A stretch of DNA of 64,000 bases from Tubulanus polymorphus. Its lineage: Eukaryota; Nemertea; Palaeonemertea; Tubulaniformes; Tubulanidae. Below are positions 6,861 through 62,930 of this stretch, in pieces. The stretch lies in contig NC_134030.1 of assembly GCF_964204645.1 (NCBI RefSeq), forward strand, positions 18,977,110 through 19,041,109, in the 5' to 3' direction. Position numbers and translations under genes: made by a program. Numbering within the stretch: the first letter of the stretch is position 1; each line of letters starts with the position of its first letter. Below the pieces are notes generated by a model that was not told the origin of the DNA, did no database searches, and saw only the letters and a program-made list of their open reading frames with translations.

Positions 6861-9800
6861 TCATCGTTCACTGATAATTAAATCGTATGGTTTCGACCTG
6901 CAGAAAAACGGGTTGTCTACGAAATTGGAAGACAGCGGTGAATCTTTCACGGGACTGTCGTCCGGGAACCGAATACTGAACTTCTGCATCAGGCCCGTAT
7001 AAAAGAGAAACACGTGTTGTTTGGCGACGCTTTCTCCGATGCACGATCGTCGGCCGCCGCTGAACGGTAACCACGATTTAGGGCGAGCTAACAACTTTCC
7101 ATCTGCGCGAATGAACCGTTCGGGTTTGAACGATTGCGGGTCGTCCCAGACTCTGCTGTCGTAATGGCAAGCGTAGATGTTCCCCCAAACTTGACAATCT
7201 TTAGGAATGTCAAAACCCTCTGAAAATAGACAGAAATTATTCCGAATCGGCATCACATGCTTAGAATGTTAATAGTCAATAGATCCATTTACTATGGACT
7301 TAAAATATCTGATTCTAGATTTGTGTGGGATTTAATGGGTTTAATTTGACTCTTGTCCAAATTCCACAGTTACGTGGGTTCAGTTTCAATTCAACGTATA
7401 TGAAATAGATTCTGGATCCTGTTCCACGGTAATGTAGGTTAGAATAGTCGTTGAATCCAGATTAACAGTTTGTGAAGTTAAACTATCGATTTAGGATTCA
7501 CATTCATAATAATATAATAATAATTTATTTTCTATATATAGCGCTTAGCTAAAAATCATAATCTAAGCGCTTTACATTATAAAAAATATGCAGCATATTT
7601 AAAAACAATCGCACAATTATAGGTAAGAACAATACGATTTTTTAAAAAGGTATTCACAGTTGGTTCAATCTGAGTACATATCCAGCTCCACCGTTTTGAA
7701 AGTTTTAATTCGACTCATCACCTAGTCTCACATGACCCAGTTTTATAGAGGTGGGTTCAATGTGACGCTGAATCCGATGTATGAAGTAATTAGACACTCA
7801 TTGCTTATATATCTTACCTAGTTGTACGTCGCACGCGGCTGTATGTATAGTTAAAGGTCCAACTGGACACAACCTCATCGTTTCAAGCATCACTGCTTCG
7901 CAATAAACCAATTGCTGTTTATCGGCCATTTCCAATTGCCGTGCTCCTGTTGACAAAACATGCAAAAAGGAGAATTAGAAAAAAATGGCTTATCTGAAGT
8001 ATGTATATCATGACTGGCTTTTCATACCGATATGTTCATCAAGTTCGGCGTGAACTTTCTTCTGTGCTTCAGGATATTTCGCCAGGAAATACATGACCCA
8101 GTATATCGATTGACTTGAAGTATCAATCCCAGCTTTAATTAAAAAAAGACAAATTTATGAGCACGTGGCTCCAAATAGAGATAAAACGTGCCTATTTTAT
8201 GCCACAAACAAACCGACAAATCCTTAGTTTAAAAATGGAGTCCGGGTCGTAATGAAACAAATAATGTGATCCAACAACTTTAAGTCATTGACAGTTCCCA
8301 GTTTCAACATGGTGAAGGATAAAACTTCAGTGAGAATAGAGTGCATAATTGTTTATCAAGTTTGTCTACTGAAATCGTGCATTGTACATTTAATGAAAGC
8401 CCTTCTTGAGCTTCCAAACTTTTCATGATTTCACCAGGAAGAAAGTGCGAGCTTAGATACAACATATGGCAGATGGCCATAGCTAGGATCGTGGATATAC
8501 CCGCGTATTATAGGGCGGCGGTAGAGATACAACGATGGTTGTTCGGTAAACGGCAGGACTTTAACTAGATTCGATGCCTATATATGGTCTTCGGTCATAA
8601 ACAAATCGATTATGACGGAATCTACCTGCAAAAATATCGTTGAGGATTTGAACCATATGTCTATCGCTGAAATCATCTGCTAATTTTGGATCATCTTCGC
8701 GAGTTCTTTCTCTGGCCTCTATCAAATAATCTGTGATATCCGTCAGATGTTCTGCACAACAGAAGATAAAGAAAACGCTGAATTCAGTTCGTCAAAAACA
8801 ATTTTGGAATTCGGAATAAAATGCGATGCACATTCATCGCTGTAAGTACCGTAACTGAAATGACAAATGAGGAATTAAAAAAAAAACATTTAAATGGACC
8901 AAATGAGGAAGCCGTTGAAAACTAATCTTTTCAAATCGTTCGATGGAAAAGTAAAGACGGGAATAATCATAAAACGATTGCTAAATATATGTGTTAATTT
9001 ATAATGGCAAATCAATTGAAAACAAAGATGTGAAGAACCATATTCACAGAAAAAAAAACTTCAGCGCTATTTATACTTGGTTAAAAGGTAATATATCTAT
9101 GTCTCTTTCAAGATCCTCGTTATAAAGTTTATCCCATCTGTTTCAAAACGCAATCTTTCTCTCAAACATTAATCCGAAAATTGATTTAGATGCTCGAATC
9201 GCTGTAGATTAACTCTGTTGTAGCCAAATGCAGGCAATAAGAAAACTACGTCGGCCATTTTCAACCACTGGTTCAGAACATGACATAGCCCCATAGGTCG
9301 TCCAACTTTAGCCGACAGTAAGGGTTAGGGATATAACCAACTGAGCAACCGGCCAATGAACTTTTTGTTGTCCACTGGTTAAATCAACGAAATTTTGAGC
9401 AACTGGCCCAGGTAATTAAAAATCGGTCTTACCGGGGTCAAAATTAGCAACGTGTTCGTTAAAATGCTTTCTCAAAAAGTCTTGCATGTAAATAAACTGT
9501 TCGATGATTCTCCTAGTCGACGGTATCTTGTACTTAGTCGGAATATACCTCATTATAGGTATAACGTCTTCTAGTACGCCAGCATTTCCGAATATGTTGG
9601 TCAACTCGTCCAAAGAACGGTATAAATCGTGAAACTCCGGATCATCTGCTTCAAACCTCAAAGAAAGTTTATTGACGTTTAGGAATTTGAATATTCGTGG
9701 GGGGTTGATAGTTCATCGCATCATTTTAACTACATCATTTCTGGGGGATTCATTTCTAGGTACAGTCTGTGCACCAGGGATGTATCATCAAATTATTTCT

Positions 9801-20265: not shown

Positions 20266-23100
20266 TCAAGCACAAAGTTGCTTTCTATAATTTCTTAGGA
20301 ACAGTTTAGAATTTTCCATGTTTTTTAGATTTTCACTGATGTTATTCCAAAGTAAAGGGCCGGATACTTTTACTGAAAATTTTCTTCTTAGACTATTGAA
20401 AGAAAGTGTTTGTAAATCTTGACGTCGCCGAGTATTGTGACTGTGGATTTGAAAATTTTCGAATGATTTCGGTAATTCGGAGTGGACAGATCTGTAGATA
20501 AAAGTACCTAGCTGAAGTTTATTAATATCTTTGAGCTTGAGGATATTAAAAGCTTTGAAAATAGGGTCAGTGTGCGCCAAATAATAGGAATTAGAAATTA
20601 GCTCTTTTTTGCAATACAATTAATGGCTGAAGTTTATTTTCAAAATTTCGTCCCCAAACTAAGTTACAATACTGGAGGTAAGGATCAATAAGCGACAAAT
20701 AAAGGGTACGAAGAGAACTCACTGGCAGCTTATATCTTACTCTATTTATTATACCAATGCTTCGAGAAACTTTTTTTTCAACTGATTTTATTTGATCGTC
20801 CCAGGTTAGATTTCTGTTTGATCTCTATATTGTTAATTGATATTCTCAAGTTATGTTTCAATAGTTTACCGAACACCATAAATGACGTCTTCTTTACATT
20901 TAATGACAGCTTGTTTGTTTGAAACCAGGTATACAATTTTGATAATTCAATGTTTACTGTACGTGCTAATCTGTCTAAATTAATGTCACTATAAAAGGCA
21001 TTTGTGTCATCGGCAAACAATATAAGTTTTAACACATTAGAAAATTTAATACAGTCGTTTACATATAATAAAAAAAGCAAGGGACCTAAAATTGAGCCTT
21101 GGGGTACTCCAGTTTTAACGGTACATAACGAGGATTTATAATTTTGAATTTGAACAAATTGTTTTCTATTCTTCAAATAGTTTTCAAACCAGTTGTTAGA
21201 GATGCCTCTTATTCCATAAAAACATAATTTTCTTAATAAGATTTCGTGATCAACGGTGTCAAAGGCTTTTGATAAATCTAAGAATACCCCAATAGTTGAT
21301 TTGTTTTCTTCTAAATTTTGTGAAATTTCATCAGTTATCAATGTTAAGGCCATGGCTGTTGAATGGTTCTTTCGAAAGCCGAACTGGTTTGGGTGAATGA
21401 TATGAAACTTGTTACAATATTCGGTTAATCGATTATACACTTATCTTTTCGAGAATTTTAGAAAAGCAAGGCAGTACGGATATCGGTCTGTAATTATCAA
21501 AAGAGTCATTATTGCCAGCTTTATAGAGTGGACGTATTCGCGCTACCTTCAGTTCAGCCGGCACTATACCGGAATTTAAGGTACAGTTAAATATATGAGT
21601 TAGCGGGTATTTTACAGAATCAATTATTTTCTTAACTACTTTTACAGAGAAACCATCAGCACCAGCGCCTTTGCTGGGTGAGAAATCATTTACAATCTGA
21701 CTGATTTCATCAGGGTGGGTCGGGAAAAAGAAAAAGTTTTCATTTACTGGATCTGTCAGATATTCACTGAAGTGGACACCTGTATCTGGTATTTGATTGG
21801 CTAGGTTGCTACCAATATTTACAAAGAAAGAATTAAATTCATTAGCGATATTTTCATAGCCGTTTGCAACGATACCGTTCCTTTTGAAAGAGCAAGGTAA
21901 TCTACACCGATCATTGGAAGATTTTCCAATTAGACTGTTTAAGATATTCCATGATTTTTTCATGTCGGATTTGGCTGCAAGTAATTTAGTCTCATAATAC
22001 TTTTTCTCGGCATATTTGAGTGTACGAGACAAGGTACGTTTGTAATTCAAATAATTGTTCAAATGTGATCTATTACGCAAAGATTTTCTGTACAAGCGAT
22101 TTTTGTGTTTAATACATTTCAATAATCCAGATGATAACCACGGTTTATGTAATTTATTTTCGTTTATTTTACGGGGAGTTGAAAAAGGAAAACATTCATT
22201 ATATAATTCCATGAATTTAGTGTTAAATGCGCTGTATGAGAGTTGCGGGTCTGCATTACTATAGATATCCGACCAATCAGTGGCCCCAGAAGAGCTCTAT
22301 TGAATTTTGAAATGTTACGTTCACAATAGTTTCTGTTCGAAGTAACCTCTTGGTCAATTTTTGGCTCAACGTGATTACAGACAGTAAAAATAGGAAAATG
22401 ATCCGAAATATCGGTACAAATAATACCCGTACTAAACACATGGCGAATATCGTTACAAAAAATATTATCTATAAGCGTCGAGGATGTGGGAGTGATTCTT
22501 GTAGGTTTATCAACTAATGGAATGAACCCAAATGAAGTCATATTTTCTAAATATTTATCAGTTGGTCTGTGGGCGTTAACTTGTAGTAAATCGATATTGA
22601 AATCGCCCATAAGATAGCATACTTTGTCTTCTCTATTAAGTTTCACTAAAAGTGGAATTAATTCATTATTAAAGCCATTTATGCTTTGTCCGGGTGGTCG
22701 ATAGATCAGACCAATTAATTTATTTTTTTCTTTTTCAAGAATCAATTCAATAAATAGACATTCAAAAGTATTTCTATCCTCGGATAGATCTGGTCTAAGT
22801 TTCACATTAAAACTTTCTTTGAAAAATAGGGCCAAACCTCCTCCCTGACAATTTTTTCTACACTTAAAAACACTTTTCATACCTGGGAGATTATACAGCC
22901 TGCCATTATCATGAAGTTCGCTAGTCCAGGTTTCGGTTAACTCGAAAATAGAAAAGTCAGTTTTTAAATTGCTCAAAAAATATGAAAATGTATCAAAATT
23001 TCTGTTACAACTACGAATGTTTAAGCACAGATTGAAAAATGTTCCTTTTCAAACTCTACAATAGAGTTTACATCAAAGTATTGACATTTGTTATAATTAA
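20266..23100 (-). pseudogene. LINE ORF2 (APE endonuclease and reverse transcriptase), frameshifted
   Basis: APE endonuclease motifs ETW, GDFNIDLL and SDHFPI lie at about 22976-22380. RT follows: NYRPISVLP (about 21480), FLDLSKAFDTVDH (about 21270), TGVPQGSILGPLLF (about 21090) and LFADD (about 21010). A C-terminal domain with WGRNF and GPLLWNN ends at 20266. Frames change near 23025, 22200, 21437, 20800 and 20605, so no full polyprotein can be made. FADD in place of YADD is common in CR1/Jockey-type elements and probably not a defect. Confidence 0.85.
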
Positions 23101-23156
23101 AGATGTCGATGATGAATAAGTATAGGGTAGATAATACTCGTTAATAGGTAGCATTA

Positions 23157-24629
23157 TTAGACTGATGTTATCGGTAAATCATCCGGGACTGAAATTCTGT
23201 CCTTTTTGGCTATGTGAACAGTTGGGCTAATATCGGATGATGATGTCTGACTTCTGGTTTGTTTTTTATTCTGATCCGGTGTTAATGCACGAAGAAAGAC
23301 TTGTGTAAGTTCTTTGGCACCATCGATTCCAATATGGATTCCTGACCTATCAGTTGAATCAAATAACGACTGGTTAACTGAAAAATTTGGTTGGAATACC
23401 AAATCATTGTCTATATAGTTCAAATGATTTTCACTGTCACATAGCTTTCGAAGATAGTTATTGATCTTTGAGGAAGTGTCATTGTAGGTTAGCGCGGTCT
23501 TACTTTTTCCTTTACGCGGTAGTATACTAGATACATTAATTTGAGCGCTGGGAAATGTATTTCGAAGGATATTTATCATTTTTGACATATCCAGGATTGT
23601 TTGGTCATGATCGTCTTTGTTTCGAGTCATGTCGTTGGTCCCTAGATGGCAGATTATCGATTTTATTTTCGCATTTTCAATAGACGGGTCCCCTTTCTGG
23701 AGAAGTTTATTTACATCATGGGCCGTTGCACCCGAAACGCTGCACACGTGAACGCTTTCCGGAATATCTGTAAACATCAGGCGAGAGCAGTTCGAGTCAC
23801 CCATAATAATATGTTTCGGGGGCACAATTGTCGAGCTAGCGGTGCGGCTCTCTGCAGGTGACATGTCAGTGACGGTAGACTGAGTATGAGTAGGAGTTTT
23901 AACTGTGGAATGTGATTTGTCCTCACATGATTGATGATCAGTTATGTCGTCGTCAAAATTCAGTCTTTTTTCCAACCCCTGTAATATCGGACATTCTGAT
24001 TTTTTATGCCCTTCCTTACGGCAGTAGAAACATAAAACGCCAGATGGACAATTGGCTGCTAGATGGTCTGGAGATTTACATTTAAAACAGAGTTTGCGAG
24101 TACGCAAGAGACAACGATAATACTGGTGATCCGTTTCACCGCAATACACACACTGCGTTTTATTATTATCGCAGTAAAGTCGGACTTCAAATCTTCCAAA
24201 TTTTGAATTAACTGGAATTATACTTTTCACTTTAAGCAATTTAGCATAAATAGAGCCATTCAAAATATCGGTGTTTTTTATTTTCCCTCTTCTGATACTC
24301 CCATTTATTACCTCACCGTATGTCGATAATTGGGAGGCAATGAACGCATCTGATAATTCAACTGGACGTGCATCTTTAATTGTAACGTTCGTAACATCTT
24401 GTACATCGTCAGCTTTATCAATTTTTAACGTGCGGTCTCTTATGTTCGGTGGATTTTTTATGAAATCCTCAACTGCACTCGTGTCCTTGAACGTAATTCT
24501 ACACTCACCAGTTTTTGTGATTTGAATCGCACGCACTCGAACTGATTTAGATCCCAGGGCTGATAGGATATCACTTTCCGTAATCCTTCCACCATAACAA
24601 ACGACCGTGAGAGGTCTTTTTAGATCCAT
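23157..24629 (-). CDS. LINE ORF1 protein: RRM-like, three CCHC knuckles, SGNH/GDSL esterase-like domain
   Basis: An intact 490-residue nucleic-acid-binding protein of the retrotransposon RNP. Seen: an N-terminal RRM-like fold region (residues about 7-60); three consecutive zinc knuckles of the form C-x2-C-x4-H-x4-C (residues about 158-215: CVYCGETDHQYYRC, CFKCKSPDHLAANC, CFYCRKEGHKKSEC); a Ser/Thr-rich linker; then an SGNH hydrolase-like domain with IIMGDSNCSR (block I), LGTNDMTRN (block III) and SGIHIGIDG (possible block V). The starting ATG lies about 75 bases after the putative element 5' end. The open frame contrasts with the broken ORF2, so the element decayed recently. Confidence 0.88.
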   Translation of the reverse strand: MDLKRPLTVVCYGGRITESDILSALGSKSVRVRAIQITKTGECRITFKDTSAVEDFIKNPPNIRDRTLKIDKADDVQDVTNVTIKDARPVELSDAFIASQLSTYGEVINGSIRRGKIKNTDILNGSIYAKLLKVKSIIPVNSKFGRFEVRLYCDNNKTQCVYCGETDHQYYRCLLRTRKLCFKCKSPDHLAANCPSGVLCFYCRKEGHKKSECPILQGLEKRLNFDDDITDHQSCEDKSHSTVKTPTHTQSTVTDMSPAESRTASSTIVPPKHIIMGDSNCSRLMFTDIPESVHVCSVSGATAHDVNKLLQKGDPSIENAKIKSIICHLGTNDMTRNKDDHDQTILDMSKMINILRNTFPSAQINVSSILPRKGKSKTALTYNDTSSKINNYLRKLCDSENHLNYIDNDLVFQPNFSVNQSLFDSTDRSGIHIGIDGAKELTQVFLRALTPDQNKKQTRSQTSSSDISPTVHIAKKDRISVPDDLPITSV

Positions 24630-24839
24630 GTTTCAACTTGCGGCTAACTGAGAATTGAGGTAAAAATCCAAAAACCATATCAGTGACGGAGAAGCGACTC
24701 CTACACCGCCGCCATTTTGAATAAGAATGAAATTCGAAATAATGTTTTCAAAACCAAGTTTTGCGTAGATTAGATCGACAAGTAAATCGCGTTTTCGTTA
24801 ATACATGGACTCTAAAATCGTTTTAGATTCCATTGTTAA

Positions 24840-26215: not shown

Positions 26216-26524
26216 GCTGGAACAGACAGCAGGGTTCAGTGAAGATAAGCGACAACGCTGTTAATTGTTACTATGCCATTTCATCTACCGGGTTTACTTC
26301 TTCAAACTTTAAAAAAACTGACCGCAGATTGTCCGAGGAGGTTGATACCGACAGTAGTTATCGTATTATTTAGACATTCTACTAAAAGTTAAATATCGCG
26401 GTCTAGTCTAATATCAGTGTTTTAAAAATTCAATCCAGGCTGACAAGAGAAGAAACAAAAGTGCGGTAGTAAGAATTGAATCGCTGAAAAGATAACTAAA
26501 ACCTTAATAAATACGACGATCATT

Positions 26525-29500
26525 ATGGGTCATAACGTATCGACGCTGTGGTCTCCAGTCGTTATAACTGTCAAAACCGGCGACAGAAAAGGCGCCGGAA
26601 CCGACGCAAAGATTAAAATCCGCCTTCACGACAGCGACGGATGGGTCTCACCTGATATTACGTTGGACAACATGTTCAAAGACGATTTTGAACGAAACAA
26701 ATCCGATACTTTCTCGGTCCAAAGAGAGTTTCCCGATTGCGGGCCTTTCACGTAAGTAGGAACGTATTTTCTGTTTGTTTTTTTTTTGTTCAGTGATATG
26801 TTATTTGTCTGAACGACTGCCGGTTTTTGTCTTGGGCACCGAATTTGAATATTCGAATATTTTCAGAGTCGAAAGCCATTGGAGTGCATCAATAGTCCGT
26901 TAGTATACTAGACCGGGGCCAACTAGTCCAAGGGTCCACTAGTGAGCCCATAAGAGACTTGCCTAATAGTGGATCCTCGGATTAGTGGACCTTAAGGCAA
27001 ATGGTTTCCCAGACTATTGGGCTGATTATGGTGCTATTTCCCACGATGCTATTTACGGGCAAAATGATCGTAAATAAGAGTTTCAAAAGTTTTCATACTG
27101 TCGATTCCAGTGTATTACAGTGCCATGCGATGTATTCAATAGGCAATTGATTGCTTTGTTCCTGGAGACATAGCGATAAGTTATAAGTCGTATTACCCAC
27201 GATAGCTCAACCCCTTCTGAACCCCCCGCCGAAACATCCCTTAATCTACATCGATTAAAACCCGCGATATTGAACTAAACTGACTGCGAAACAACAATTA
27301 TTCTAAGCGGGTGACCTTTGCATCGCCAACAGCTGATGTTAGAAAACCAAACGCATTACAATCTGCTGTAATTGGCCTACTAATCAACTGGTTCAGCAAT
27401 TCGGGTCAATAGTGCAATCGCAAATCTATTCGTCACCGATTTGAAAAAAAGAATCTAGACCTTTCTTATCGGCGATTCAATCGAAAGTCTCATCAGCCCT
27501 ACTGGGTAAAGGTTGTTGAACTATCGGTCTAATTATTCTTGAAAAAAGCGCCGCGCTCGACTAAAAAGATAATACTCGCAACCCTTGTATCATGCATGGC
27601 AATAACATCTAGCTCGAGACCACGGGTATCACGGGTATCACGGGTATCACGGGTATCGCGGGTATCGCGGGTATCGCCGTTTTTCAAAAAGATATGTTTC
27701 TTGCTTCGCTGTGGTGCAGGCTATATAGTATGTGACCGAAACATCGAAACATTTCATATCATATACATTTTAACTGTACGACGAGTACAACAAAATGGTT
27801 TTCAACAATACCGTAATTAATTAATTAAAACCGTCATTTCAAAAAGTTCACTGAAATGAATAGTAACATGTGTCAGAAGTGATAGCCAAGAAATTGATTC
27901 TATTCCCTTCATCAAATCAGAAAATTTTACGATGTCAAAGCGCGTTTTCTAAACAAGACAAGATTTTCTAAGATATTCTAGATATTATGACAATAACATT
28001 TTTTTTTGAAAATGTCCACTCGCGTGTTCAGTTTTTAAATTCATCGAAAACGAAATAAGAAATTAATATGAAATACATTCACTTACAAAATAAACGCCAA
28101 ATTCAAAAAATTCTATTTGTTATTTTGAAACGCCAATATTGATGACGTTGTGATCAATATTGACTACGATTACTGGTCATACAGTCTTTGACGTCATCGA
28201 CGCAGATTGATGACGTAGTGCACATCGACGTAGACCGAACCCCTTAAAAAGCGCGTACTATCGTTGTATATAAACATCAACGTTGTTTATACGCCGGCGA
28301 AGAATTTAATTTTCGATTTTATCCATTTCAAGGGCTATAGAGATCATAAGCGATCAATCGGGTCTTATGCCTGATTGGTACGTCGATACAATACACGTAC
28401 TACACAGACGACTAGAAGAAACATTCGTATTTCCCATTTATCGCTGGATCAAAGAGAAGAGATTGTATATATTCCGCTGTTTGGACGTCAGTCTACCGCA
28501 GTTCGACCCGTATCCCGAGCAACGACGGGAAGAGCTGAGACAAAAGCGGGATGTTTACAAATACTGCGAGAAATACCCCGGCGCCCCGGTGCAGGTAAGC
28601 TACGTTTAATTCGATTTTTATCAGGGGCGGGTCTAAGAATCTGGAAAAGGGGCTAATTAGGCTGCAATGAGCTAATTGTGGGGCAAAGAACTGAATTGAA
28701 GTGTTGCCCGTGCACTGACAGCAGCCAACAGGACTCGAACCAGGTTGTTAATCAACACTGCGCATAGATATACAAGTGCAGTGTCAACGACTGATTTTGT
28801 GGTCACTGCGCCGGCCCGGTGTCTACTGGCTGTTAGCTTAAGGGTATTTTTTGCTTTGATTGTCTTTTTTGGTAACTTAAAAAGCTCACACACAGAAATC
28901 ATATATTACATCTTGCCGGAGGCGCGGCGAGGCCTGTATAGGTCAGAAAATCTTCGTAGGGATGTAGTTGAAATCAAATGTTCAGTTTAGAGTTTTCCCG
29001 CGATATCGGAACGACTATTTAAGATATTTCTAAATTGTGGATCGTTGGCCAAAATTAACGACGACATGACTTTGATTTTCCTGCCCCCTCCCCCTTCCTT
29101 TCCCAACTAACGAGTCGACGAGCGATTGATTAATCGTGGATACGTCTTTTTACAGGTTGAAAATTTACCAAAAGACGAGCAGTTCAGCGAAAAACATCAA
29201 GTACGTAATTTATGTTATTTTTATTTCTGTCCACTCCTAGTGAAATCTACAATTGGATACCGGCAACACCAGACGGCGCAACAAAACACTGGGTCATTCA
29301 TAGTGAAAGGCAGTTCATTTCATTATCAATGAAATTTGAACTTGATTTGTAGGTTTCGATATTGGCGTTTTAGAATAACGATTACAGTTATGAATTTGGG
29401 CATTTATTTTGTAACGAAATATATTTCATAACTCTTATTTTATTTTTGATAGAATTTGATAATTTTTGTTGAGAGGATGTGTGCTAGGTCATCAATATAT

Positions 29501-39743: not shown

Positions 39744-45090
<5,347 letters not shown>

Positions 45091-52265: not shown

Positions 52266-55200
52266 CTAAAACCTATGTACTGCATACGAATAATCAGTTG
52301 TTGTATCGTCGGTGGCGCCCCCTAATGCATATTTATCGCAGATATATTCCACAGAAGCGTAAGAATATAGTTGGACGTCATCGTCCACGCGCTCACTGCA
52401 GGTACGATTATTTCCGGCTTCCATATTCATGTACGGCGTGGTATCTTTGCCCTTTCCGGCTTCCATATTCATGTACGGAGTGGTATCTTTGCCCTTTCCG
52501 GCTTCCATATTCATGTATGGAGTGGTATCTTTGCCCTTTCCGGCTTCCATATTCATGTACGGAGTGGTATCTTTGCCCTTTCCGGCTTCCATAATCATAT
52601 ACGGACTTGCAACGTTGCCCTTTACGGCTTCCATATTTATGTATCCAGATGTATTTATGTTGTTATCAGCCTCTGAACTCCCGGCCTCGAAATCCAAACG
52701 CGGATTTGTATCTTTTTTTAAGCTTGTAACATTCGGAATGGTTTGCAGTAATCCGGCCTCGGTATCTGACTCGATGTCGTCGTCCAAAACCTCATAGACT
52801 TCGTCTACCTCCAGCGGTTGCTGCTGATTCGTAGTCGGGGCTGTATCCTCCACGCGACCTTTACCGGACTGTCGTCTGCGTCTGAAAAATGTGTTATTTT
52901 GCGCATGAAAAAAAGGAAAATGCTGATCGTAAAATGAAGCCATTTTTGTAATTCATTGTGTAAGACCTTAATAATGACCGATCGCCTCTAAAGATGAAGA
53001 ACTTCTCCAAAACATCAGCTAACAACTAGGCAATCTCATAGGATCTGCTAACAACTATACTGGTGGCTGCCAAAATTCGAACTCTCTCCCTCTCTACTCG
53101 TTTCCCAACTTAACTACTCTCTCGCTCTACCAAGTTTCAACCACGTGATCTCTCCCTACCAAATTTAGTGTGGTTTCTACAGAATCTGCAACCTCCATCA
53201 ACCACTCTCCGACTAGAAATATATTTCCAACCACCAACACTACATACCAAGTTTCCGAATCATGTTTCTGAATTACTCCCTTAGACTAAGCTATTTACAT
53301 TTCTTGTTTTCTTCGTTAAAACCAACTATTCACATTTAATCATTATTTTTATATGTTATTTGTTTCCCCAGACGTTATTAATATTTATACCATAATTTGA
53401 GTAACCCTAGTCAACTATCAATTGCACGGTTAAAAGAAAATCCCGGATAGTTTGGAATCGGTCCGGGTTAATTAAGTCATCTAGATGTGAACACTCGTAA
53501 ATCTGCCCGGTTTATTCAGCCTCGAACTAAAAGGATTTCTATAAAATTCAGCTGAGTGTATACCTGCATATGATGATAACAACGATGATAATGATGAGGA
53601 GAAAACCGGTCGCTCCACCAGCGATGTAGCCAATCATCGTACCCCAGTCACGAGTGGTCCGGTTACTGCTCTCCGATTCTGTCGGATCGACGCGGTCAGT
53701 CTAAATGAAACGAACAAGTTTCATTATCTTGACATAGCTGTCAGGGAAGATAATATTCGCACTAGTTATGGTTATAACAATTATAAGATAGGCTTGAACC
53801 AAAATGAACGCGTATCATCAATATACTAGACGATTATATAGTTTAAAATACACTTTTGTATCAACCTGAAAGCAGTTTCTTAGTGATTGTGATGTTTTTA
53901 TTTGATTGTGCCACGGATGTAGATATACCATAGGCCTACTTAGATATTTCAAATGAGATTTTGATTATATCTTCAATTCTTACTAACCTCGTATTTCGAG
54001 CCAACTTTTTCTACATTCACCAGCTTGATTCTGAATGATAAAGACAAACTTACACTCGAATCAAATCAAATTTACAGCATACAAATGACAATGCATGACT
54101 GGCGAACGAGCGAATCGAGTGAATGACTTTATTCGTTGCCCAACTTCATAATCATAATTTAATTCTCAGTTATCGACTTAGCAGATAGTAGAATGATAAC
54201 CGAAGTCGATGCCCTATTTCTTAATGCATAATTAGTACGAAGACTCCCTTCTGAGATGCGAGTACTTAATTTCTAACATTTTTAGAGCTAAAATCTAAGA
54301 TTTAAGAGCAGTTTAATCGAGTCCGTGATTAATTTAATGATACGAACGAGGATTGCCAAACAGAAGGGATTTCTCAACAACGTAAAGATCTTTATCTTGC
54401 CCCTGAATATCTGACGTCTCTTTTGACAGTTAATAATGTTAAATGAAATGGACACTGACCCCGATTCAAAGATTGCAGTTTGTGTCCTGTTTGTTGAGGG
54501 ATCTACAAAAGAAAAATAACTAGACAATTACGTTCACTATGGATGGGTTCGATTTCTCTTTGCAATGATTGTTCTTTTTTTTTAGATAAAAGTAACCGAC
54601 TATTCTGTCCTAGAAAAAATACACTGAAAGGAGCTACTGGTACAAATTAGCGCGAAACCAGTGAACTTGTAACTTCTCATCGAGTTTATTTGTTTAGGTA
54701 GCTGAATGTGGGCATATTTCATCTTATATATTTTCTTTTCTAGGGCTGCTTTCTAGTATAAGCTAACTGTTGCTTCAAAGCAGTCCCTCATCTAATATTA
54801 TTATAATTTTAATGTATTTGTTTATCCATTAATTCTGTAAAAATGTTACATGAAAATCAAATCAAATCAAATCAAATCGCATAATTGCATATTACCATTC
54901 GTCGTTATATTAACTCCCGCCGTCGGCCGTACGCTGGCGCCATCTTTATGCGCGAGATGATCTTTGAAACCTACGTTCGAAAATGAGTGAATCAGTTAAC
55001 AATTTTCCTGAGTTCGAACGATAAGCAAACGTCACCAACTCATACTAAAGTCACCGTCTTGGATAGCGCCTCGGTGTGACAATGTCATCCCAAATCAGGC
55101 GTGATACAAGATGGCCGCGTTGATGTGAATTTCAAGTTTAATTTTGACGTACTAGGGGGCGTGACAGTAGGATTAGAAAGTATCTGTACATCACCGCCAT

Positions 55201-56763
55201 ACATCCACCTCTCGTCACAACTGAATGTGTAAACGACTTCGGTTCCATTCACAATTCGCATAAATTCAATCTAAAATGATGCATTCATTAAATATAACAA
55301 TAATGAACTTAAAATGAAATCGTGAACGTCGAGTAATTAGTAAGTTAAATATCTGAAATAAAATGTCAGGGTTTGAACAATGAAAATCAAATCTACGGAA
55401 AGCTATGATTTTGGTTCGTTGCGTTCGCATTTCTTATCAATTCCATCTAAAATGAAGCATTCATTACACAAACAATCAGTGAATAATGAACGTATTCGCG
55501 GAGGCTGAATAATTCGATTGATAGAATTGTGTAAAAATGTTGATAATAATTATCTTATGTTTGGGTTTTCAATGATAAAAATCTGACGTGTGGGATGATC
55601 TATCTCTGGGTTATTATCCTTGTTCAGCTTATTGCTTATTGCTAATCGCATTTAGCTTATTGATACATAGGTTAGCGTGGGTCATGAAATAACGGCGGAT
55701 CCCTCGATGTTTGACTAAATTGGATCGTGTCGAACATACCCCGCTAGAGACCGAAATGTGCCTACCTTTTGTGGTGCCCAAGCTTTGTCATAAATAGAGA
55801 AATAGGATTCCACTTTCAATACGACCTTTTCAGGAATACTTATGTCCTTGGCCCGCAGTAACCACATCTTGTATGTGTTTCTCTTAAACGTGGCATCTTC
55901 CAGATGTATTGTCGTGTTTTCTGTATTTCTGCCGGTCATTTTTATGGAAACATGTCCCGTGAATCCTCCAAAATTCCAGTTTCTAGTGTATGCAACTAAC
56001 GTCCAATTTACTGAAATTCAAATCAGCTATATTTTACCAAAACCTATTATGACGGGACAGCCATTTAAATCTCAATTACTTAGTTGCAGTCCATTCCTAA
56101 AATCATTTCTGAATAAGAAAACTAAAACTAAGTTTATTGACGCCTCGTAAAATAACACATATAATTGCTTAAAATTGTCGATGATAAAAGTTATGATATG
56201 AATTACGTAAAATTAAGGCTCAATAAAGTTTATTTTTGGATTGAAATATTGATAATTGAATTGACTTGACCGGCGACCAGTATTGCCTCGATATATTGAT
56301 AAATTATCTTGTGCATATTTTGAAAAGATACCTCTCAATTTATATTTGATGAATTTCAATAATCATAAAATTATTTGATTACATAACATACGTTAAAATT
56401 CACAATTGATCTTGTTATTTTGAAACACCAAATATTGATGACGTCGTGTACATCCAATCACACAGAACCCCTTGAATAACGCATACTAGGTATCAATGTA
56501 TGTAAACATAATTGTAACGGTTTTTACTGCGTCAAAAAATTTTCCATTTTGAGAGACAAATTGATATATAGAAATATATTCCCCAATAATTATAAACTCT
56601 TTAACTCTGAGCCGTCAAACCATATCTATGATTGCTTTGCGTATTGGATACCTCCGATCAATTTGAAAAATACATTATCGGTCCCGAACTTACCGGGTCT
56701 GCTTCTAGAAGCAGTTATGATTAAAAGCCAGATAAGCAGCCCTGCGCAAACCCTCCTATCCAT
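52266..56763 (-). CDS. Single-pass receptor: PLAT ectodomain, TM helix, tail with six YxxM motifs
   Basis: Exons, minus strand: 56694-56763, 55766-56010, 55153-55270, 54896-54970, 54460-54502, 53988-54030, 53564-53700, 52266-52881. They sum to 1347 nt, 448 residues plus stop, and all seven junctions keep phase. Residues 1-19 are a signal peptide. About 24-140 form a PLAT/LH2 domain of the pancreatic-lipase type (TGHVSIKMTG; final strand FMRIVNGTEVVYTFSC). A Ser/Thr/Asn-rich stalk to 218 has NxT sequons; the TM helix is about 219-243, followed by RRRR. The tail has Tyr-x-x-Met at Y324, 338, 352, 366, 380 and 394, the last four YMNM, plus Y273 (YEVL) and more tyrosines near the C-terminus. YxxM binds PI3K p85 SH2 and YxN binds Grb2 SH2 in known receptors; signalling here is inferred. 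The weakest joins are the exon 3 donor (GTACGT) and exon 5 donor (GTCAGT). Confidence 0.82.
52418..52680. repeat. Coding 42-bp minisatellite (YMNM repeats)
   Basis: Near-identical 42-base units (core CCGGCTTCCATATTCATGTA on the plus strand), four almost perfect and two diverged, each encoding one 14-residue repeat with a YxxM motif. The length keeps frame whatever the copy number. Confidence 0.95.
56390..56540 (+). repeat. Dispersed repeat, TTATTTTGAAAC..TATTGATGACGT family, copy 3
   Basis: Same ordered blocks as 40640-40860 (AATATTGATGACGTCGTG, CACACAGAACCCC, TAGGTATCAATGTATG, TGTAACGGTTTTTAC). It lies in intron 1 of the PLAT receptor, antisense to that gene. Confidence 0.75.
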
Positions 56764-59554: not shown

Positions 59555-62500
59555 TCAGCGAGTTCTCCAAGCTCGTTTGCTTCTAGCTCGTATTGATTTC
59601 ATATCGATAGTGAGGATGGTGTAAAGAAGTGGATTCAGTGACGAGTTGATCGGTAGGAAAAGTACCGCCAACCAAGCCGCCACTTGGTTCGGTATCTCGA
59701 CTCGGAATACAGCGCAAAACTGAACGATAATTATCGGTAACCAGCAAAATAGATTACAAAGATTTATCACTAAACTCCTACGTGCCAGAATCAATTCGGT
59801 AGGATCAGCTCTCCCCGAGCCAGACCTGCTTCCAGATACTAGTCTATACATATGTGCATACGTAATTAAAATTGTAGCGAGTACGGCCGAGTTAAACACG
59901 GCAAAAATAGCGAATGAGTATTGCCAGGCGGGGACATCGATGGTTATAAAATTCATAGGTAGACAAACCCCAGTTGCACCGTAAAAATTGTTTCCGAAGT
60001 AAGAAGATGACGATAGCGGTAGCAACGAAATGATAAACAAAATGATCCAACATACACAGCACATGCCGGATACCGAATTCGAAGACATAATTGGGCTTCC
60101 AGAAAATGGGTCGACGATATTCGAGAATCTTTGACGCGTGAGCATGAGGAGAAATGTCAGTGATCCCTCACACGAAATAGTCACTATAATCCCAGCGAGT
60201 CGACACAAAGAACTATCTGTCCAACTTTCAGAATTTAGGAAATAAACACCTTTATAAACATAATCAGCTCCGGCGATCACAAAAAGATAAATCGACATGA
60301 GAAAATCGCAAGTGGCGATATTAATGATGAGGATATCGGAGCAAGTGTTCCTTGATTCAGAGGATGCATTTCGAAATGCTTGAACGCGAAGTAAAATAAC
60401 AAAGCTGTTCGCAAAAAAGCTGAATGATGCGATTGCCCAAATTATTGCCCTAAGAACAGTGTTACCCATCAGGTCGGAACAAGATGAATATTGATCAGCT
60501 TCTGGTTGACACCGTCTAATATTCGGAACCATGCACCAAAATTGGTACGCATCAGAAGCCAAAGAACTCAATAAGGTTAGACTGTCAAAAACGTTTCTTT
60601 CTACGGAGATAACTCTAGAATTTTTGGTTAGATCAAGATTTCTAAGTTTCATCAATCCGAAAAACGTGTTTGGTGAAATATACCTGATTTTGTTGCTGCT
60701 GATATTTAGCGACTCCAAAGCGGATAGACCACTAAATACATTTCCCTCGAGTAACGATAAGAACAGCCCGTGAAGGTCTAGATCACGTATCGACTTTAAC
60801 CCTTAAAAACTGCCTTCTTCTGAATATCTCACTGGATTTCCAAAAAGCAAGAGCGCTTGTAAGCTATACAAACCGGCGAATGTATTCGCGGACAACGTAG
60901 CTAAGCGGTTATATGTAATGTCTAATGTATGTAGATTATACAGGTTTGAAAACGCATTCGTAACAATGTGAGACAAATTGATGTTACGTGATATATTTAA
61001 GAAATGTAGATAGTAGTACGAATAAAAGGTGTAATGATTGATTTCAACTCGGTTTCCTGATAAAATCAGAACTCGAGTTGATGCCGAGAAAAGATCAGTA
61101 ATTTCTCCTAAACCAGCATCATTACAGTCAATTAAATGGCCTTGGCATTCACAACTATTTGGACACGTGACATCACAGAAAGATTCATAATCCGAGTTAT
61201 GTTTACAATTTACAACACCATCACAAACTTCAGATTGAGGTATACATCGGTCTTCCTGACCACATTTGAACATACCAGGACATGATAAAGTCTGACAGGT
61301 TCGCTCGTCTTCTGAATTAGGACAATCGGATCGACCATCGCACACCTGTCCCGTCGGTATACAGTAAGATGCTGGACATTTAACAGTACCAGCTGGACAT
61401 TGGAAATCAGTACAACCTCGTATGTGTTCGAGCCTTCTACATATGGGATGACCTGTTGGCATTCGTTCTAAAATACATCTGTGACGTCTAGAATAACAAT
61501 GAGGAGATTCAAAAGAACATCTTTGTTCATCAGATTTCTTACACGACAATGTTGTGAAATTAGTCATACAGTAGTTCTCTGTAGTGCACTGATTCTCAGG
61601 GTTAACAGTTATATTTGTGTCTATCTCATCTTCTTCGAGGTCCCCACCACAATCTACAACACCATCACGATACAATAGAGAACTGATACATTCACCATTT
61701 ACACACAGAAACCCGTTACATTCATCTGAAGAGCAGCCGATCTCATCGGATTTATCTTTACAATCAACCAGTCCATCACATCGATTTTATTTACCCACAC
61801 ATTGTCTATTTTTGCACTTAAACTGTTCAGTGGAACACATTATGATAGCACGAGTTCTCATCTGATCCGTCAGCGCAATCTCGGACAAAATCGCACAAAT
61901 TACTCACTGATATAACCTGTCCATCTGGACAGTGGAACTGACTCTGTAAGTTTGAACCCGAACAATCGAGTTCATCTTCACCGTGTTGACAGTCGTTTCT
62001 GGTATCACATACGCGATGGCTACTGATACATCTTTGGTCGTTGCATTGAAATTGCCACGATTTACAACCACTTACAGAGCCTAACTCTTTACTAGTTACT
62101 TTATTGGCACAAAGCACAGAATGCGCTACATCTGTGACATTATAGAAATCTGTCACTGACCATTCCACTGATTTGATATATGTTATCTCATCCCTGGTTA
62201 CGATTGGTGTGATAGCGAGAATACCACTATTCGCAGCCTTTGCCAGTATCGCACCATATTGAAATTTGTAATGGAATGTTTGAATCAAATGATCAATTCT
62301 CAATTCATTGGATATCATACCTATGTCACCGCCGATTGTAACACACATTTCCTCAGCTCTCCGAATTGACAATCTCTGAGTATCCCAAGCTGTAAGTATC
62401 TGATAGCAATGTCCTTCTATACCAATCCACCCTCGTAGACACGTTGAGTTACCTACTTCAAATGTCTGAGAATAATGACTCTTGTTTCCCCTCGAAACAT

Positions 62501-62723
62501 TAAATTGCTGATTATTAATAGTTGTGTAGTTATTTGTGTCTGTTTCACAAATAAAAGTCGTGTGAGTCTCCTCGATTTGACACGGGAATCGAACCCAGTT
62601 CGCTGAACCTCGTGGACTATTCAGTATCATCGCCGTACACGGCATATTGACGTCATTTATCGGTTGTGTTCGTAGAGGAGATATCAATCCTTGAATATAT
62701 TCTGGTATCGTTTCGTTTATCAT
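59555..62723 (-). pseudogene. GRL101-like receptor (lectin-like, LDLa, LRR, 7TM), broken
   Basis: Intronless minus-strand reading in three pieces. 62723-61827: degenerate C-type-lectin-like segments (GWIGIEGHCYQILTAWD) and LDLa repeats (CNDQRCISSHRVCD, DCADGSDENSC). 61675-60803: further LDLa repeats with CDG and NSEDERTC, then LRRs (LHTLDITYNRLATLS). 60718-59555: last LRRs and a leucine-rich-repeat-GPCR 7TM ending in NSSLNPLLYTIL. Breaks: a frameshift near 61850, an in-frame TAA at 61787-61789 inside an LDLa repeat, and an in-frame TAA at 60803-60805 inside an LRR, with homology continuing after each. The 5' end is missing and abuts a minisatellite. The family binds peptides or relaxin-like ligands in other species. 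Confidence 0.82.
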
Positions 62724-62734
62724 ATCATTGTGAG

Positions 62735-62930
62735 GGCGATATAGGTGTTGTAATTGTGAGGGCGATATAGGTCTATATCGCCCTCAAAATCACAGCATCT
62801 ATTTCACCCTCACAAACGCAGCATCTATATCGCCATCACAATCGCAGCATCTATATCGCCCTCAAAATCACAATTACATCTATTTCACCCTCACAATTGC
62901 AGCATCTATATCGCCCTCACAATCTGTTTC
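62735..62930. repeat. 26-30-bp minisatellite (CATCTATATCGCCCTCACAAT)n
   Basis: Seven or so imperfect units, with one inverted unit at the left end (62735-62780), directly at the truncated 5' end of the GRL101-like pseudogene. Confidence 0.9.

Follow-up and report, generated by a model that had tools for sequence, protein, structure and literature searches.

The gene LOC141907020 of Tubulanus polymorphus, a palaeonemertean (a nemertean, or ribbon worm), lies on the contig here called C6, in a window of 64,000 nucleotides (C6:18977110-19041109 of a 267.8-Mb assembly). Its product appears to be a type I single-pass chimera without a kinase, in which the head half of a PLAT-bearing receptor has been joined to the tail half of another receptor whose repeated YxxM motifs would recruit phosphoinositide 3-kinase (PI3K) and perhaps Grb2. 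We give this reading, which rests on sequence comparison, a probability of about 0.62. The original prediction, made from the letters of the window, had proposed a receptor joining a lipase-type PLAT domain to a tail of YxxM repeats. A PLAT-headed receptor model with a YxxM tail is confirmed, except for the word 'lipase-type', and the accompanying interpretation is supported in part: the architecture and the dual PI3K and Grb2 consensus of its YMNM motifs held, and the likeness to lipases did not. What that account had missed is that the receptor looks like a junction of two receptor families that already exist.

We rebuilt the gene from the sequence as eight exons on the minus strand, running from 56763 to 52266, with a product of 448 amino acids. 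All seven introns are GT-AG and every codon phase closes, as in the eight-exon model first put forward, and a search of about 5.8 billion proteins returned NCBI's T. polymorphus entry 'uncharacterized protein LOC141907020', identical at 448/448 residues; that entry was made independently of the original prediction and is itself still a prediction. Exons 1-7 end in phases 1, 0, 1, 1, 2, 0 and 2. One hydrophobic segment, at residues 218-249, rises above the cut-off used (a Kyte-Doolittle mean of 1.6 over 19 residues). The N-terminus falls below this cut-off and is probably a signal peptide, judging from its own sequence and from its counterpart in the relative on contig C8; the corresponding reading frames on contigs C8, C11 and C3 begin MDRKVYAGLL, MDWRIYAGLL and MGKSVYIGLL, respectively. 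A secreted-type N-terminus, PLAT head, stalk, transmembrane (TM) helix and YxxM tail in a single gene model, as first claimed, are all supported, and Pfam found no kinase domain in the protein.

After residue 150, LOC141907020 matches all 15 of the other T. polymorphus proteins compared (P0002-P0016), the best of them at 52% over 247 amino acids (E 7e-68); its first 150 residues match none of these paralogues below E 2.8. It belongs to a T. polymorphus YxxM-tail family by its homologous stalk, TM segment and tail, and has PLAT in place of the immunoglobulin (Ig)-like or third-type head usual in that family. The genome holds at least 40 loci with such a tail, 30 on C6 (17.49-22.81 Mb), eight on C9 and one each on C11 and C19, pseudogenes included and matches, copied by hand, grouped within 3 kb; by the statement of the search tool such counts are lower bounds. 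Within 8 kb upstream of the tail, the head found closest is Ig-like at 28 of the 40 loci, of the third type at seven and PLAT at one, with none at four; the tail fragment at C11:11.417 Mb is one for which no head was found. A profile of eight Ig-headed relatives added four more proteins, all 18 of its matches (4037 candidates) being from T. polymorphus, and a protein-database search with the LOC141907020 head alone found only the protein itself among 24 candidates. Because both searches require shared 5-residue words and similar length, this absence of head or tail relatives from other species is weak evidence.

The usual head was modelled for the paralogue P0010 with 14 relatives. The predicted local distance difference test score (pLDDT) is 76-94 in a block at residues 41-140 (whole mean 58.5), and the best solved matches of the model in Foldseek are Ig domains, including B-cell receptor chains (Ig-beta among them), shark VNAR and BTLA (best E 2.8e-5); the query-normalised TM-scores, about 0.23, are low because the query includes a long disordered tail. 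On this predicted structure the usual head of the family would have an Ig fold. Ig-headed members (LOC141914491, LOC141910843, LOC141907918 and others, all 'uncharacterized') resemble the C6 gene in their stalk, TM segment, basic juxtamembrane stretch and 14-residue units, but differ from it in their Ig-like head and in having Asp rather than Asn at position +2 of most units.

The tail of LOC141907020 carries YxxM at residues 324, 338, 352, 366, 380 and 394, one per 14 residues. The six repeats first described are therefore present, with the qualification that the array consists of five full units and a sixth that diverges after YMNMEAG. Tandem Repeats Finder (TRF) places a 42-bp array with near-identical central units at 52411-52643. 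Six YxxM motifs were reached in none of 20000 shuffles of the tail, which is a test of composition only, since a tandem repeat naturally exceeds shuffled composition. The residue at +2 is Asn in five of the six motifs, compared with Asp in 60 of the 65 YxxM motifs of the other 19 family proteins. There are 13 tyrosines in the tail from residue 273 onward, including those of YEVL and YSYASVEY, and a pattern search of the protein found no immunoreceptor tyrosine-based inhibitory motif (ITIM). The 14-residue spacing runs throughout ten of the 14 tail exons read (the C6 gene included) and through part of the other four, and the tailed proteins and the tail exons that were read have anywhere between 1 and 19 YxxM motifs each. 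The paralogous tail L021 (G000:C6:22814009-22815016) has 19 YxxM at exact 14-residue spacing, and a tail-type open frame of 682 amino acids at G000:C6:22784886-22786865 holds many YxxM-like units.

Given alone, residues 24-145 match Pfam PLAT (PF01477) at E 5.6e-6, with 27.5 bits against a gathering cut-off of 23. The related heads on C8, C11 and C3 score 35.3, 38.3 and 39.3 bits (E 2.2e-8, 2.6e-9 and 1.2e-9), so that all four distinct heads of the family, each given alone, pass the cut-off over most of the profile; we accept the LOC141907020 head as PLAT because these three relatives also pass. Its description as lipase-type was not borne out. When the head itself was ranked with 5000 of its own shuffles, it stood 29th of 5001 against LPL and 1416th of 5001 against pancreatic lipase-related protein 2 (PLRP2), and against a profile of three lipases it was not among the six best shown (hhalign E 0.12). 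A profile of the four heads gave eight PDB rows at E<=10, none significant and none a lipase; they include muscarinic receptor chains and TOM22, from E 0.1, and four lipoxygenase rows at 0.39 to 1.1. Two other PLAT regions were seen: a PLAT-bearing frame of a lipoxygenase-type gene in the window (26480-26755, plus strand; Pfam 3.2e-11; nearest PDB entry 11R-lipoxygenase) and, separate from the PLAT-receptor family, a cluster of PLAT exons found by Pfam over 30 kb at G000:C11:8112776-8142935.

We found five loci of the PLAT-receptor family (C6, C8, C11 and C3 twice), with heads that are 62% (C11), 61% (C8) and 37% (C3) identical to the C6 PLAT; genome searches started from the C3 and C8 heads gave no further heads at E<=1. 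The C3 loci have equal scores and opposite orientation, at 22.30 Mb (minus) and 22.46 Mb (plus), about 157 kb apart, and represent either a recent inverted duplication or an assembly duplicate. The genes on C8, C3 and C11 share with the C6 gene a signal peptide, a two-exon PLAT and a stalk exon, and C8 and the one C3 copy read have other TM segments and tails than C6. The tail of the C8 locus, L050 (tail exon about 15414797-15414273), has four tyrosine repeats (IYEP) around IYEPSGLEPEESD and no YxxM array, and that of C3 contains ATYSEVSF. A genome search at E<=0.1 gave no second copy of the C8 tail; a match on C9 was dropped as a sushi-type protein, by eye from its DNA. The C11 locus (G000:C11:8671641-8675526) has the signal, PLAT and stalk exons of the family, and no convincing TM exon was found up to 8688000, about 12 kb past the PLAT exons, where three hydrophobic frames are present, none family-like. 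The C11 gene is perhaps secreted or broken.

The parentage of the exons can be followed across the C6 gene. Exon 4 is closer to its stalk counterparts on C8, C3 and C11 than any of 2000 shuffles in each case, and does not align with the corresponding exons of the Ig-headed gene L059. Exon 6 matches the second stalk exon of L059 (0/2000 shuffles as good), and these two matches place the join between exon 4 and exon 6. For the intron phases of the Ig family the comparison was with L059 alone, a gene read by eye: phase 1 closes its signal exon and its Ig exons, and the exons that follow its head finish in phases 2, 0 and 2. Exon 5 has the phases and the donor GTCAGT of the first stalk exon of L059. 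In C8 and C3 the signal, second PLAT, stalk and TM exons all end in phase 1, with a phase-0 end of the first PLAT exon implied by the phase-0 start of the second and with the best-scoring splice sites used for C3. These genes share the C6 phases up to the stalk and depart from them at the TM exon, which in C6 ends in phase 2. At the DNA level (E<=1e-3), C8 is similar in exons 1 and 2, C11 in exons 2 and 3, and both L059 and L058, a gene on C9, in exons 7 and 8; C3 shows no similarity at this threshold. We propose an intronic join of two receptor genes. Its most likely site is intron 4, at which the two halves would meet in phase 1, and intron 5 is the alternative. Exons 1-4, with the signal peptide, the extracellular PLAT and a short stalk, would have been donated by the PLAT-headed family, and exons 6-8, probably together with exon 5, would have brought the remaining stalk, the TM helix and the YxxM-repeat tail from the family of about 40 loci with a usual Ig-like head. 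An (AAATC)5 microsatellite lies inside intron 4, at 54854-54878. The C6 gene would be the derived form, because only one of the 40 tails has a PLAT head and the PLAT genes on C8 and C3 have other tails.

Another origin of the same pattern would be the joining in error of two neighbouring genes, one with the PLAT exons and one with the tail exon, since NCBI and the original prediction may both have been led by open frames. This is very improbable. All phases close and the NCBI model is identical; exons 1-4 and exons 5-8 both have a matching relative, and the two sets meet in phase 1; and no Ig exon was recognised in the locus, where the best paralogue-ectodomain match outside the TM segment and tail has an E of 0.057, or within 25 kb upstream of the tail.

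Several observations weigh against the chimera as we describe it. Its derived status is an argument from parsimony in a single genome with no outgroup. The match of exon 5 to the first stalk exon of L059 is weak, with 73 of 2000 shuffles as good, and in C8 the best-scoring acceptor of the TM exon is in phase 0, the phase-1 site having been chosen for its fit with the stalk; extra exons are possible there. Where the head is concerned, Pfam did not report PLAT for the full protein, for the 218-residue extracellular fragment, for a 226-residue fragment or for exon 2 alone; the loss in the longer fragments probably reflects the behaviour of the HMMER prefilter, because the three relatives pass clearly. 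NCBIfam gave no family for the head, and an AlphaFold model of the whole protein made without homologues has a pLDDT of 38.8, too low to show the fold of the head. The Ig domain of the paralogue P0011 has a weak resemblance to exon 2 (27% over 89 amino acids, E 0.057 in a 7.5-kb search). This resemblance and the loss of the Pfam match in longer fragments, with the lack of a PDB match by sequence and a comparison with lipases at chance level, speak for the head being some other beta-sandwich, such as a much diverged Ig domain. We consider that most unlikely when all four family heads pass the Pfam PLAT cut-off alone and when the head of LOC141907020 has a single Cys, and therefore no Ig-type disulphide within it.

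Growth of the tail repeats by slippage, which is possible without function, is a further point on the same side. An alternative gives the tail little part in signalling, as a low-complexity extension that evolves fast, and has the protein serve in adhesion or as a decoy; the near-identical central units of the 42-bp array and the variation in YxxM number might suggest this. We estimated the ratio of nonsynonymous to synonymous substitution (dN/dS) by a simple Nei-Gojobori method. The C6 tail gave 0.37-0.53 against tail exons from 14 loci of the remaining 39, which were motif-pattern matches in loci already to hand, some of them near-identical tandem copies, and in whose alignment repeat units may be out of register; the C6 PLAT exons gave 0.26, 0.56 and 0.51 against C8, C11 and C3. 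These values indicate constraint, of moderate degree, on both halves of the gene and count, for the tail, against little signalling. Across 91 spacer-anchored units Tyr is kept in 61, Met at +1 in 51, Asp at +2 in 52, Met at +3 in 64 and Pro at -1 in 64, and the conservation of Tyr and of the +3 Met is only mild support for signalling because the -1 Pro is equally kept. On this evidence an inert tail seems to us rather improbable.

In the chimeric receptor that we favour, the PLAT head would take a lipid, a membrane or a protein as its ligand; that it senses lipid is a guess drawn from the roles of PLAT domains in other proteins. The tail would be phosphorylated by a Src-type or Syk-type kinase and the SH2 domains of p85 would bind neighbouring pYxxM pairs, bringing PI3K to the membrane, and a different input would thus feed the same output as in the Ig-headed receptors. 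Asn at +2 adds to five of the six motifs a Grb2 consensus that most family motifs are without, and the C6 gene may therefore also have widened its output. The setting is likely to be immune-type or other cell-surface recognition. The same chimera could instead act mainly through Grb2 or through other tyrosines, such as those of YEVL and YSYASVEY, or could be inhibitory, with PI3K secondary. The YxN sequence in five of six motifs, the 13 tail tyrosines and a YSYASVEY end in five paralogues fit such a scheme, but the motif of the family as a whole is YxxM, mostly with Asp at +2 and without the Asn of Grb2 sites, and the pattern used found no ITIM to suggest inhibition. We regard this variant as unlikely, if less so than an inert tail.

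The PLAT/LH2 domain (PF01477) is shared with polycystin-1, lipoxygenases, pancreatic-type lipases and LOXHD1; in polycystin-1 it is intracellular, and we know of no PLAT protein that combines a single membrane pass, a PLAT head outside the cell and a tyrosine tail in one receptor. DAP10 is a single-pass, kinase-less protein with a YxxM tail, and CD28 has one YxxM and an Ig head. LOC141907020 is a TM protein with YxxM in its predicted cytoplasmic tail, the sequence features of a PI3K-coupled (CD28/DAP10-like) receptor, and resembles that type in being single-pass and kinase-less; no homology is claimed. On this reading it would work like a CD28/DAP10-type receptor but would not be a member of the CD28 family, because it has a PLAT head and no Ig V-type ectodomain. 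BCAP and the IRS proteins are cytosolic adaptors without an ectodomain or TM segment. Their multiple YxxM motifs dock p85, according to PMC6937578 and PMC9481563, and resemble those of LOC141907020, which has an ectodomain and a TM segment. CD28 YMNM is listed for both PI3K and GRB2 in PMC9481563, in agreement with the earlier statement that YMNM fits both consensus sequences as in CD28. The p85 subunit is said in PMC6937578 to bind tandem phosphotyrosines 10-30 residues apart, a range that includes the 14-residue spacing of the tail. Amphioxus FrLRR is a precedent for a receptor assembled in this way: PMC10199209 places it at the cell surface, has it act through Grb2 and attributes its origin to the shuffling of exons between two genes. 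Unlike LOC141907020, it is described as having folate-receptor and leucine-rich repeat (LRR) parts, a predicted glycosylphosphatidylinositol (GPI) anchor and no tyrosine tail.

Searches of open-licence PMC papers gave none on PLAT with YxxM, on PLAT with transmembrane receptor and lipase or on YxxM with invertebrate Ig tails, and no report of such a receptor appears among the titles listed by further searches. What appears to be new here is a PLAT head on a known PI3K signalling logic, within a multigene family whose database entries are labelled 'uncharacterized'. If our reading is correct, the gene is a natural counterpart of engineered chimeric receptors, with one signalling tail under unrelated heads, and the swap can be read exon by exon because both donor families persist in the same genome. 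The receptor family, uncharacterised as far as our searches show and with up to 19 YxxM per tail read, would offer a test case for the reading of motif number and spacing by p85 and a lead into recognition systems of ribbon worms. A wider proposal, which we hold tentatively and think somewhat more doubtful than probable, is that this nemertean lineage has its own PI3K-coupled immune-type receptor system, with dozens of clustered YxxM-array genes whose heads can be exchanged through phase-1 introns, the C6 gene being a head swap that gave a PLAT lipid or membrane sensor with added Grb2 coupling.

Table 1. Features of LOC141907020, in window coordinates, with the support for each.
Feature	Position	Strand	Support
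exon 1: probable signal peptide MDRRVCAGLLIWLLIITASRSRP, ends in phase 1	56694..56763	-	gene model; 74% DNA identity to C8 over 77 bases
exon 2: first part of PLAT, residues 24-105, phase 1 to 0	55766..56010	-	gene model, Pfam, related heads
exon 3: second part of PLAT, residues 106-145, phase 0 to 1	55153..55270	-	gene model, Pfam, related heads
exon 4: stalk exon of PLAT-receptor family, phase 1 to 1	54896..54970	-	aligns with C8, C3 and C11 stalk exons
intron 4: most likely join of PLAT-receptor half and Ig/YxxM half	54503..54895	-	phases and exon parentage
exon 5: stalk exon, probably of Ig/YxxM family, phase 1 to 2	54460..54502	-	phases, donor GTCAGT as in L059
exon 6: stalk exon of Ig/YxxM family, phase 2 to 0	53988..54030	-	alignment with L059
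exon 7: end of stalk and single TM helix (about residues 218-244), phase 0 to 2	53564..53700	-	gene model, hydrophobicity
exon 8: predicted cytoplasmic tail and stop codon	52266..52881	-	gene model, NCBI protein, paralogue comparison
six YxxM units, 14-residue spacing (YINM, YMIM, 4x YMNM)	52392..52643	-	gene model, TRF, unit alignment
C-terminal YSYASVEY motif, residues 416-423	52344..52367	-	same pattern in P0002, P0003, P0005, P0007 and P0011

Other frames in the window include two with receptor domains. On the minus strand, at 59555-62783, three adjacent frames carry the Pfam domains LDLa, LRR and 7tm_1 of an LDLa-LRR rhodopsin-type G protein-coupled receptor, and on the plus strand an open frame of 889 amino acids at 42421-45090 has a secretin-family (7tm_2) domain. 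The region 6861-9712 (minus) has a cytochrome P450 exon at 6861-7268 by Pfam and, at 9416-9712, a frame that looks like P450 by eye and has no Pfam match. Frames of a long interspersed nuclear element (LINE)-type retrotransposon, with reverse transcriptase, endonuclease and zinc knuckles, were recognised by eye at 20778-24632 on the minus strand.

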